DNA of 64,000 nt, taken from Campylobacter sp. CN_NE2. Lineage in GTDB: Bacteria; Campylobacterota; Campylobacteria; Campylobacterales; Campylobacteraceae. Positions within the stretch are counted from its first letter, which is position 1. Each line of letters begins with the position of its first letter. The notes under the pieces are model-generated. The model ran no database searches. It worked only from the letters and a program-made list of their open reading frames with translations, and had not been told where the DNA came from. The stretch covers positions 62,001 to 126,000 of the forward strand of contig NZ_CP115608.1 of the NCBI RefSeq assembly GCF_027797465.1, in the 5' to 3' direction. Position numbers and translations under genes: made by a program. This document shows, one piece after another, positions 51,491 through 59,406 of this stretch.

Positions 51491-53002
<1,512 letters not shown>

Positions 53003-53045
53003 TAGAGTACAAATGAATATTCTCTCACAAGATATTCATCATAAA

Positions 53046-53064
53046 CTCAATCGTCCTTGTTTAG
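53046..53064 (+). other. Right arm of the 16S precursor processing stem
   Basis: CTCAATCGTCCTTGTTTAG, complementary to 51351-51371 apart from a central bulge. Confidence 0.75.
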
Positions 53065-53224
53065 GTTTGAGGGATTGATTTAGAAGTAGTTAAATTAGTC
53101 TTGTTGCAAAGTTATTTTTGTTTTAGACAAGGAAGTTTTGAGAAAATCAAGGAGCATACTTGATTGTATGTGACGCAGATTTTTAAAAAACTGACATAGT
53201 ATAAAGCAAAAAGAACGAGCAAAT

Positions 53225-53301
53225 GGGCCTATAGCTCAGCTGGTTAGAGTGCACCCCTGATAAGGGTGAGGTCACAAGTTCAAGTCTTGTTAGGCCCACC
53301 A
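53225..53301 (+). tRNA. tRNA-Ile (anticodon GAT) in the rRNA spacer
   Basis: 77-base cloverleaf with CCA: acceptor GGGCCTA / TAGGCCC, anticodon stem CACCC / GGGTG, loop CTGATAA, T-arm with GTTCAAGTC. It is the only tRNA in this 16S-23S spacer; a tRNA-Ala, usual in many Campylobacter spacers, is not seen. Confidence 0.96.
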
Positions 53302-53816
53302 TAAAGTTTAATTTGAGCGCTAAATTTTAGCTTTCAAATTAGGCTTTATGCCTATGTTCCTTAACTTACCATTGTTAAAAGTCACAATCAAGTTTTAATA
53401 AAAACGATTTTACAGGATCTTGTTAAAGCTTTAAATTTAGACACTAATGCAAATTTAGTAAATTTGTTATCCCAAATTTAAATGATTGAGATTTAAATTT
53501 TCAAATTTAAATCATAAAGTTTAAATTTTACATTTACTAAATCAAGTTTAACGGCACAAACAATTAGAGTTAAAACTTATCTAGTTGTTGTTAATGCTTT
53601 CCGTCTTGGGTGTTTTAAATTTAAATATTGTAAAAGCAATTTATAAAATTTTATGATTTAGCAAATTTGATATTAAATTTAACAAATCAAATTTAAAAGC
53701 TTCAAATTTAACTAAATTTAAATTTATAAATTAAATCTTTTATCTTTAACAAGGAAGTAATGCAAATTAGAATATTAACATAGTCTAATACTTCATTTTA
53801 TTATGAAGTAAAAAAA
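53302..53816 (+). other. AT-rich 16S-23S spacer without genes
   Basis: About 515 bases dominated by AAATTTAAA-like words. I see no tRNA and no reading frame. The only clear structure is the left arm of the 23S processing stem at 53744-53763. Confidence 0.8.
53744..53763 (+). other. Left arm of the 23S precursor processing stem
   Basis: CTTTAACAAGGAAGTAATGC is the exact reverse complement of 56727-56746, a 20 bp stem across the 23S gene. Confidence 0.85.
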
Positions 53817-56721
<2,905 letters not shown>

Positions 56722-56726
56722 TTTAA

Positions 56727-56746
56727 GCATTACTTCCTTGTTAAAG
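56727..56746 (+). other. Right arm of the 23S precursor processing stem
   Basis: GCATTACTTCCTTGTTAAAG, exact complement of 53744-53763. Confidence 0.85.
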
Positions 56747-56845
56747 GTATTAGAAATCCTTTAACAATATGGTAAAAGATTTTATTAAGCTTGATGACTT
56801 TTGCAGTGTTAAAAAAGCAAACTTATAAAGTTTCCTTTTTTAACA

Positions 56846-56965
56846 CTGTCCGTGACTATACAGATGAGGAAACGCCTTGCTCCATACCGAACCAAGAAGC
56901 TAAGCTCATCATGGCTGATGATACTATCCCTTACTGGGACGGGGAAAGTAGGTCGTTGCGGACTT
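56846..56965 (+). rRNA. 5S ribosomal RNA
   Basis: About 120 bases: GTCCG near the start pairs with CGGAC near the end, with the internal GGAAACGCCTTGCTCCAT and GAACCAAGAAGCTAAGC typical for campylobacter 5S. Ends estimated from the terminal pairing. Confidence 0.93.
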
Positions 56966-57135
56966 TGTTGTTATTTATTCTATTCTTTTTTTAAGCTTCT
57001 TATCTTTTTTTAAAATCTGAGATTATTTGGGTTTTTGGTGTTGAAATTTTGGGTTAGGGTTGTTTTATCCAAATTTAATTTGTGTTTTTGTAATATAAAT
57101 TTTTGCAAATCGATAAATAAGTGGGTAAATTTAAT

Positions 57136-58047
57136 ATGTTAATTGCGGAAGTAAATGGAAAAAGAGTTCATGCTACAAAAGGAGCAAAAGGAATATGTCC
57201 TTGTTGCAAAGCAGAAGTAATTGCTAAATGCGGAGAAGTGAAAATGGCCCATTGGTCTCATAAATCTAAGAAAAACTGCGATTCTTGGCATGAAGTAGAG
57301 ACCGATTGGCATCGTATGTGGAAAAATTATTTTTCGGAAAATTGGCAAGAAATTATTAAATATGACCAAGAGACTGGCGAAAAACATATTGCCGATGTTT
57401 GCACGGAAAATGGATTTACATTAGAATTTCAGCACTCACCAATCAAGCCAGAAGAAAGGCTGTCTCGCGAACAATTTTATAAAAATATGAATTGGGTTGT
57501 TGATGGCACAAAGCTTAAAAATGATTATAAAAGATTTGAGAAAGGGATTGCGAAAAATGCAAGAACTATTTCTCAAATTAGATATATTGAACAAGAAGCA
57601 GGTGTTCAATATGGTTATAATTCTAGTGGTCAAGAGATTTTTCCTGTACAAGTTGGTAATCTTTTAGAAATTTCTTTTGCAGACGAATTATTACCTAAAA
57701 ATTGGCTAAATAGCAGTGTTCCGGTTGTTTTTGATTTTAAGGGATTAAATGAAATTAATGAGCCCAATGATTTAAGACAATCTGTTTTTTGCTTATTGCC
57801 TTTGAAAGATATTTTTCATAGATATTTAATTCAAATTCCAATTCAGTATTTTATTGAAACTGCCAAAAGTGGTTTGTGGGCAAATTTGGTTAATAATTGC
57901 GTAAATGAATTGCAGAAATTAATACAATACCGAAAACAAAGACAAAATATACAATCTCACAAAATGTATTATCGCAATGTTCCATTTGTTAGCTTTAAGC
58001 GTCGCCGTCCTAAATTAAAATCTCGCAAACCACCTAGACGATTTTAA
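57136..58047 (+). CDS. CoiA-like nuclease family protein
   Basis: A 303-residue protein resembling the CoiA/CoiA-like family. N-terminal treble-clef type zinc site: CPCC (residues 21-24) with HWSH (39-42). Then E-x-E-x-D-W (53-58) and the nuclease core ADVCTENGFTLEFQHSPI, where Asp87, Glu97 and Gln99 fit the D-E-x-Q pattern of PD-(D/E)xK enzymes. The C-terminus is strongly basic (KRRRPKLKSRKPPRRF). Family members act in competence or are associated with defence. I use ATG 57136; GTG 57121 is in frame and neither has a clear ribosome-binding site. The gene stands alone after the rRNA operon. Confidence 0.8.
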   Translation: MLIAEVNGKRVHATKGAKGICPCCKAEVIAKCGEVKMAHWSHKSKKNCDSWHEVETDWHRMWKNYFSENWQEIIKYDQETGEKHIADVCTENGFTLEFQHSPIKPEERLSREQFYKNMNWVVDGTKLKNDYKRFEKGIAKNARTISQIRYIEQEAGVQYGYNSSGQEIFPVQVGNLLEISFADELLPKNWLNSSVPVVFDFKGLNEINEPNDLRQSVFCLLPLKDIFHRYLIQIPIQYFIETAKSGLWANLVNNCVNELQKLIQYRKQRQNIQSHKMYYRNVPFVSFKRRRPKLKSRKPPRRF

Positions 58048-58202
58048 TTAGATAAATATAAATTTCATCGATTTCAATACCAAAATATAACTCATAATCT
58101 ATAAAATTTTTACAAATTTAACTAAATTTCTTTCAAATTTACCAAATTTTAAGCCATTTAAAGTTACGATTTAATTCTTAACTTTTCTTTAAAGGAGCAA
58201 AA

Positions 58203-58721
58203 ATGAAGTTTTCTAAAATTCTAGTTCTAGTTACGGCGGTGGCGAGTTTTGCGTTTGCGCAGATAAACCTTAACACAGCTACAAAAAAAGAACTTATGAT
58301 GCTACCAGGTATTGGTGCAGGGAAAGCAGAAGCCATCATAGAATATAGAAAATCAAATAAATTTGAAAGAATTGAAGATATAAAAAATATAAAAGGTATC
58401 GGAAATAAAAGATTTGAAATGCTAAAAGATGATTTGAGCGTTAGCGGCGAAACCGATACGACAAATTTAAAATCAGCTATCGAAAAAGAAAAAGCAAAAG
58501 CAGAAAGAAAGGCAAAAGCAAAAGCCAAAAAAACAGAAAAAAATGTCAAAAAGGCAAAAGATGAAGTAAAAGAAATGACAAAAGAAGCAAAAGATAGTAC
58601 CAAAAAGGCTAAAACCCAAACAAAAGAAAAAGTTAAAACAGTAAAAGAAAAATCAGAAAAAACTGCAAATAAAGCAAAAGACGAAGTAAAAGAAAGCACT
58701 AAAAAAGCAAAAAAAGACTAA
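58203..58721 (+). CDS. ComEA-like helix-hairpin-helix protein with lysine-rich tail
   Basis: A 172-residue exported protein: signal peptide KILVLVTAVASFAFA, then a ComEA-type double helix-hairpin-helix (INLNTATKKELMMLPGIGAGKA and IEDIKNIKGIGNKRF, in parts), residues 20-80, which binds double-stranded DNA. Residues 90-172 are an Ala/Lys/Glu tail with repeats such as KAKDEVKE and EVKESTKKAKK, resembling histone H1-like or LEA-like repeats. ComEA normally lacks such a tail. The role in DNA uptake is inferred. Ribosome-binding site AAAGGAG. Confidence 0.85.
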   Translation: MKFSKILVLVTAVASFAFAQINLNTATKKELMMLPGIGAGKAEAIIEYRKSNKFERIEDIKNIKGIGNKRFEMLKDDLSVSGETDTTNLKSAIEKEKAKAERKAKAKAKKTEKNVKKAKDEVKEMTKEAKDSTKKAKTQTKEKVKTVKEKSEKTANKAKDEVKESTKKAKKD

Positions 58722-58742: not shown

Positions 58743-58779
58743 AATCTTGGCAAATTCAGACTTTAAATTTGCCAAGATT
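58743..58779. terminator. Terminator between ComEA-like gene and LysE exporter
   Basis: AATCTTGGCAAATT / AATTTGCCAAGATT, perfect 14 bp stem between convergent genes. Confidence 0.8.
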
Positions 58780-58794
58780 GCATTAGAATTTTTA

Positions 58795-59406
58795 TTACGA
58801 TAGTGTGAAAAATGTCTTATAAATCAAACTAAATGCGAAAAATACTAAAATCAAAGCCGAAATGTAGGCTAGCCACATCGCAACTCTGTGGCTAACAAAT
58901 TTGCGATTTTTATAAATCACAAGCGGAAATAGGCTAATCCACGAAAAAATTCCAAGAATAAGCCCAGCCAAAACTACGCCAAAGCTACCGCCGATTTTGG
59001 CAGTCGTAGCCGAAACACTTAACCAAAACATTATAACATAAGGGTTTAGCAAATTTAGCAAAAGCCCTTTTAGATAAATCGAAGCGTGAGAGCCGATTTC
59101 GTAGGTATTTACGCTTTTTGTTTTGATTTCATTTTTTGCACTTTTGAAAATACCCCACGCCATATAAAGCAAAAAACATGCCCCAAAAATGGCTAAAATT
59201 TTAAAAATGCTAGGCGAATTTAGCAGTTTTGCTACACCAAAAGCTGATAAAAGCAGAAAAAATGCGTCAGCACTCATCGCGCCAAGCCCCAAACAAAGTG
59301 CTTTTGTATAGCTTTTTAAAGCATAAGACATAATCAAAACATTGATAGGACCTATCGGCACACTAACGCCAAGACCTAGTAAAATTCCTTGTAAAAAAGC
59401 TTGCAT
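58795..59406 (-). CDS. LysE family amino-acid exporter
   Basis: A 203-residue inner-membrane protein with about six helices; start FLQGILLGLGVSVPIGPINVL (in parts: GVSVPIGPINVLIM) and LLNLLNPYVIMFWLSV are hallmarks of the LysE/RhtB family, which export amino acids or related compounds. Substrate unknown. ATG follows AGGGAGC. Confidence 0.88.
   Translation of the reverse strand: MQAFLQGILLGLGVSVPIGPINVLIMSYALKSYTKALCLGLGAMSADAFFLLLSAFGVAKLLNSPSIFKILAIFGACFLLYMAWGIFKSAKNEIKTKSVNTYEIGSHASIYLKGLLLNLLNPYVIMFWLSVSATTAKIGGSFGVVLAGLILGIFSWISLFPLVIYKNRKFVSHRVAMWLAYISALILVFFAFSLIYKTFFTLS

Follow-up and report, generated by a model that had tools for sequence, protein, structure and literature searches.

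An orphan CoiA-family nuclease, best read as cargo, between an rRNA operon and comEA in Campylobacter sp. CN_NE2

Introduction

The stretch of DNA analysed here, 64,000 nucleotides long and called the window below, belongs to the 1.54 Mb genome of Campylobacter sp. CN_NE2, a single contig, and holds a gene for a CoiA-family nuclease followed on the same strand by one for a ComEA-like protein, both placed after an rRNA (rrn) operon. Such an arrangement raises the question of whether the two proteins work together, one taking up DNA and the other processing it, or whether two unrelated genes share the same address. The answer that we consider probable is the second: comEA is a multi-copy gene linked to rrn operons, the interval between rrn and comEA receives foreign cargo, and the nuclease is an orphan cytoplasmic enzyme of the CoiA family that acts alone.

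Layout of the locus

The rrn operon spans positions 51491–56964 of the + strand, on which the other features of this locus also lie, and it includes 16S (51491–53001), tRNA-Ile (53225–53301), 23S (53816–56722) and 5S (56848–56964), located with Rfam and ARAGORN. Comparison by blastn of the two rrn-comEA units of the genome delimits a cargo block at 57037–58099; it holds the nuclease gene at 57136–58047 (303 aa, defined by Pfam, alignments and a structure model), preceded by a leader at 57058–57135 that has 97% identity in the conspecific MAG, genome G009. As for comEA (58203–58721), positions 58203–58466 encode the signal peptide and the helix-hairpin-helix domain (residues 1–88, Pfam/NCBIfam), and positions 58467–58718 encode a lysine-rich charged C-terminal tail (residues 89–172, from a composition count and the structure model). 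A sequence-only reading of this DNA had placed both genes directly after an rRNA operon, and both their coordinates and the operon were confirmed.

A hairpin with a 14-bp perfect stem lies after comEA at 58743–58779 (fold z −4.3 and −4.4); it is common to both rrn-comEA units, folds far better than shuffled sequences, and is likely a terminator. No strong intrinsic terminator was found between rrn and comEA in the window, nor before comEA in 25 units, the latter by a rough scan that also missed the hairpin after comEA; there is a hint, and only that, of co-transcription of rrn and comEA. The spacer tRNAs seem to be split between the two operons of the genome: the spacer in the window (53001–53816) seems to hold only tRNA-Ile(GAT), and that of the other operon (L034 7123–10152) only tRNA-Ala(TGC).

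ComEA and its charged tail

The ComEA ORF encodes 172 aa and starts with a hydrophobic stretch that resembles a signal peptide; it matches HHH_3 at 1.2e-18 and scores over the cut-off of TIGR00426, and the product is accordingly classed, on these sequence features, as a predicted secreted helix-hairpin-helix protein. The extra charged tail, which had also been pointed out beforehand, was found again: it counts 84 residues, 32 of which are Lys (38% lysine). No other ORF of at least 150 aa in the window has more than 20 Lys in any 84-residue stretch, and since none of the others comes close to its Lys content, AT-rich coding is rejected as the source of the tail. None of the histone models matched the tail, and the term histone-like applies to its composition only.

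Nearly all the ComEA proteins examined in the family have a Lys-rich tail that is positively charged overall and varies in length from a few to ~110 residues, and it occurs in rrn-linked and unlinked copies alike; the tail is a trait of the lineage rather than a local oddity. Between the conspecific comEA copies, dN = 0 in the helix-hairpin-helix part (residues 1–80) against a dN/dS of 0.33 in the tail, which indicates that the composition of the tail is kept while its sequence is loose. AlphaFold, run without an alignment, draws residues 84–171 as one helix, a prediction that charged sequences of this sort often receive and that therefore counts for little. Such a helix may add non-specific contact with DNA or spacing in the periplasm, and the Lys residues may hold DNA in this compartment.

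comEA behind rRNA operons

This genome has two rrn operons, each with a comEA gene downstream, and the two copies are 95% identical in DNA, with a dN near 0 in the helix-hairpin-helix domain. The linkage was counted between comEA and the 3' ends of 23S in the 37 complete or nearly complete genomes of the family having both (genomes lacking a comEA match, of which many belong to genus g2, fall outside the count): 52 of the 67 comEA genes lie at most 8 kb downstream of an rrn operon and in the same orientation, where chance alone would give 0.44, a count that does not represent a set of independent events because the species are related. All the comEA genes of the genus are linked (17/17), and 23 of the 37 family genomes have at least one linked copy; in 14 of the 37 comEA lies away from rrn, for instance after a ribosomal-protein operon in G069 and G086, so that the linkage is common and not universal. 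No report of it in Campylobacter was found in the literature searched, most subscription papers being outside it.

comEA is present at one to three copies per genome, and the copies within one genome are 88–100% identical in DNA; the shortest gaps between 23S and comEA, 5S included, are 405–474 nt. Downstream of rrn, comEA is thus a resident of long standing. In f6, another Campylobacterales family, the genomes G188, G199, G126, G267 and G297 of genus g15 have two comEA genes 459–552 nt behind 23S, and G140 of the same genus has a single one, 1249 nt behind 23S (gaps calculated manually from the listed positions); the linkage was not seen in G315, G355 and the other complete f6 genomes listed. 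A near-identical comEA pair with no adjoining rrn is found in G017 (G017:C1:443087 and G017:C1:1124849). ComEC and DprA are encoded in the genome of the window, which makes transformation plausible in this host.

Gene content between 5S and comEA

The two rrn-comEA units of the genome are homologous (blastn) from upstream of 16S to position 58810, ~90 nt past comEA, and the homology breaks only between 5S and comEA, being shared up to 57036 and again from 58100. In the second unit, this interval measures ~3.3 kb and encodes an AAA/kinase, a guanylate-kinase-like protein, an unknown protein and a D-2-hydroxyacid dehydrogenase. These four genes again occupy the second unit in the conspecific genome, whose first unit holds the nuclease. 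Type II restriction-modification occurs in the interval of two other species, with a Tsp45I-type system and an IS1595-type transposase in G013 (L049 6168–9108), and an EcoRI-methylase system and a GmrSD/HNH nuclease in G005 (L046 5436–8690). Ankyrin genes are found in the interval of G001, and recognisable cargo is absent from many others.

The best reading of these data is that the 5S–comEA interval gathers foreign genes, the nuclease being one such cargo. The idea that DNA acquired at the rrn operon accounts for both genes is then upheld for the nuclease and fails for ComEA, a native resident; its multi-copy residence behind rrn rules out that it was acquired along with the nuclease.

Two side observations regard the flanks of these operons. 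Related 83-aa helix-turn-helix genes lie behind rrn in two species (L098 1220–1471 in G011, and L050 361–612, both read in the direction of rrn), and in one of the two cases the gene is in the 5S–comEA interval. In G002, a 369-aa gene is intact behind one rrn operon (L100 1611–2720), and behind the two others (L038 and L039) only a 58-aa fragment of it stands before comEA, a sign that rrn operons have exchanged their flanks.

The CoiA-family nuclease

The nuclease ORF has 303 aa from its ATG, and a GTG at 57121 would extend it to 308. Its match to the Pfam family CoiA_N (7e-10, 38.7 bits) exceeds the curated cut-off of 26.3; CoiA_nuc gives 16.5 bits, under the cut-off of 20.3, and seven of the 13 aligned relatives match this second model at E ≤0.01, the best at 1.6e-6. 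A Cys/His zinc-finger region covers about residues 18–49, the putative PD-(D/E)XK core consists of E53/E55, D87 and E97-x-Q99, and the basic C-terminus ends in RRF. Nine residues, E55, H59, K63, D87, E97, Q99, S101, R111 and Y115, are invariant across 37 aligned sequences. In the structure model (pLDDT 84, pTM 0.80) the secondary structure runs H57–63, E71–76, E83–89 (with D87), E95–99 (with E97 and Q99), H105–115 and E118–123; together with the invariant residues, the model points to a PD-(D/E)XK fold, in agreement with the sub-threshold CoiA_nuc match. The initial naming of the protein as a CoiA-type nuclease is consistent with the CoiA_N match and with catalytic residues that appear intact.

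The search of the PDB with the nuclease model found no match at E ≤0.001, and a sequence search for solved relatives found none; in a second look at the PDB, the top nuclease was I-Bth0305I, with a middling Z of 5.3 and an rmsd of 2.9 over 84 residues. Since the PDB matches are weak or middling, no function is taken from the fold comparison. Among the BFVD matches is a viral protein that bears the name 'Competence protein' (E 2.9e-5). By sequence, a signal peptide is present on ComEA and absent from the nuclease, which would place the two proteins in different compartments. The core is under purifying selection, with a dN/dS of 0.35 over residues 1–150 of the two conspecific copies, and the ORF of G009 has an in-frame stop after ~195 codons, past the core, that may represent decay.

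As for its distribution, the nuclease is rare in this group, as the sequence-only reading had expected: it is present in two of the 14 genomes of the genus, both of this species, so that what is known of it within the genus comes from two conspecific genomes, and the phylum sample gave matches in 4 of 298 genomes, with only three beyond this species, all distant. Its closer relatives ('competence protein CoiA family') are carried by 51 plasmids, the majority from Alpha-, Beta- and Gammaproteobacteria, and by 65 IMG/VR viral contigs found in a profile scan; a single-sequence scan of viral contigs gave none, which in view of those 65 reflects its limited sensitivity. No nuclease was found in the phage GenBank records or in the E. 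coli genomes searched. The neighbours of the relatives are varied, those on viral contigs being named by eye, and include conjugation genes, a MobQ relaxase, serine recombinases, terminase, toxin-antitoxin genes, and umuDC with an SOS-associated peptidase. No fixed partner emerged from 13 plasmid and 8 viral neighbourhoods, nor from a marker count over 78 loci, and no competence gene stood beside the relatives in the plasmid and viral neighbourhoods read. On several viral contigs and plasmids (L138, L139, L141, L142, L067 and L113) a CoiA-family nuclease lies near umuDC, an S24 peptidase or an SOS-associated peptidase. The nuclease presumably reached this genome by horizontal acquisition, and the wide plasmid and phage spread of the orphan CoiA family calls for an explanation.

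Role of the nuclease

The pairing with ComEA that the sequence-only reading had suggested supposes that ComEA and the competence machinery hand DNA over to the nuclease for processing, which would then play the part that CoiA has in the transformation of streptococci. The CoiA_N match, the adjacency of the two genes on one strand, and the presence of ComEC and DprA are all in its favour, and in one streptococcal competence regulon CoiA is grouped with the genes for recombination (PMC13278378). Nevertheless, the second comEA copy of the genome has no nuclease beside it, nor do nearly all the other genomes with rrn-linked comEA; the relatives on plasmids and phages have no adjoining competence gene in the loci read, and the two proteins, by sequence, would not share a compartment. 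The pairing is for these reasons quite improbable. The absence of a competence partner, and of any fixed partner, from the loci read leads instead to a stand-alone enzyme, for which the processing of foreign DNA is the best guess, since the interval takes foreign genes and two distant relatives lie in defence-like settings.

The stand-alone reading comes in two versions. In the leading one, which we hold as possible and prefer tentatively, the nuclease is an orphan defence enzyme, phage- or plasmid-borne, that degrades foreign DNA. It agrees with the restriction-modification systems in two other rrn-comEA intervals, with an abortive-infection gene near one plasmid relative, and with two distant relatives, one of which lies in a Lamassu operon (G244, L185 3858–10293) and overlaps the end of LmuB, while the other has a WYL regulator before it and, after it, genes judged by eye to be like a Wadjet-type set, though PADLOC gave no confirmation of this. 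These two relatives, however, are only ~25% identical to the nuclease and miss most of the zinc-finger cysteines, and many other relatives adjoin recombinases, SOS or partition genes. The comparison with defence profiles, proposed earlier as a check, was run and gave no real PADLOC match: only the zinc finger of the nuclease was hit, weakly, by DruB, with 16.8 bits over residues 8–48 against a model of 504 positions, and no Druantia partner gene was recognised among the ORFs neighbouring the nuclease. A 491-aa gene follows the Lamassu-linked CoiA-like gene of L185, and a similar counterpart is near the CoiA-like gene of L186 (G195).

The other version, to which we give somewhat less credence, has the nuclease serve a mobile element in replication, repair or establishment, the copy in the window being a stranded remnant. 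It would account for traG, the MobQ relaxase, serine recombinases, terminase and umuDC/SRAP genes beside the relatives in several carriers, and for the in-frame stop of the conspecific copy; against it, element genes are absent from this site and the core is under purifying selection. In the preferred reading of a nuclease that acts alone, taken as a whole, linkage to rrn would multiply comEA and gene conversion at rrn would keep its copies alike, and more copies would provide more of the periplasmic DNA-binding ratchet in the cell. The nuclease, for its part, would cut or process incoming or recombining DNA in the cytoplasm; its likeliest role would be in exclusion or defence, or in DNA processing for the element that carried it in, with no partnership with ComEA.

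Meaning of the rrn linkage

Regarding the linkage itself, it might simply result from the frequent recombination that rRNA operons undergo and have no functional value. Exchange is visible in the flanks downstream of rrn, as with the gene of G002 that is whole behind one operon and a fragment elsewhere, and several genomes lack the linkage; on the other hand, comEA recurs behind rrn in two families, two to three intact copies are kept, and their helix-hairpin-helix domain has a dN near 0 between the copies of this genome. On balance, a mere by-product is somewhat unlikely. A bolder proposal, that we rate as unlikely, is that rrn operons serve as competence amplifiers in several lineages: comEA would be repeatedly recruited behind them, kept uniform by rrn gene conversion and perhaps co-transcribed with rRNA in a manner tied to growth rate, and the interval would gather nucleases and restriction systems on which the outcome for imported DNA depends.

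In conclusion, the locus is part of a pattern rather than a one-off pair, as comEA is tied to rrn, and multiplied with it, across Campylobacteraceae genomes and again in a single genus from another family. Gene dosage in natural transformation, and a control of it that may be linked to growth, thereby become testable outside Neisseria, and the 5S–comEA interval becomes a site worth searching for mobile nucleases and restriction systems.

Comparison with known systems

The closest counterparts of the nuclease are the CoiA-family orphans on plasmids and phages of Alpha-, Beta- and Gammaproteobacteria, with ~30–55% identity, the same invariant residues and, in many cases, the same basic RRF end; unlike them, the nuclease described here is chromosomal, belongs to Campylobacterota and sits in an rrn-comEA interval. 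With streptococcal CoiA (PF25164 + PF06054) it shares a zinc-finger N-terminal domain over the Pfam cut-off and a PD-(D/E)XK core in the model, and it differs in the sub-threshold CoiA_nuc score and in its position outside a recognisable competence operon.

As for ComEA, the ORFs of genus g2, which we take to be the jejuni-like group, are short (~82–100 aa) and number at most one per genome. Campylobacter jejuni Cj0011c, from the same bacterial family, is a ComEA-like competence protein. Outside this group, the comparison is with Neisseria gonorrhoeae, whose ComE is a short protein that is not known to have a long charged tail; its comE copies reportedly lie downstream of rRNA operons, an arrangement said to have been described by Chen and Gotschlich in 2001. 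The likeness consists in several ComEA-type genes within one genome, and the differences in the long charged tail of Campylobacter ComEA, its one to three copies, and the foreign cargo between 5S and comEA. In gonococci, comE, the comEA homologue, exists in four identical copies, and their stepwise deletion lowers DNA uptake (PMC3999279, PMC2601033). Multi-copy comE is thus already known from gonococci, and the rrn-tied comEA of Campylobacter, with its cargo between 5S and comEA, is a variant of that arrangement.
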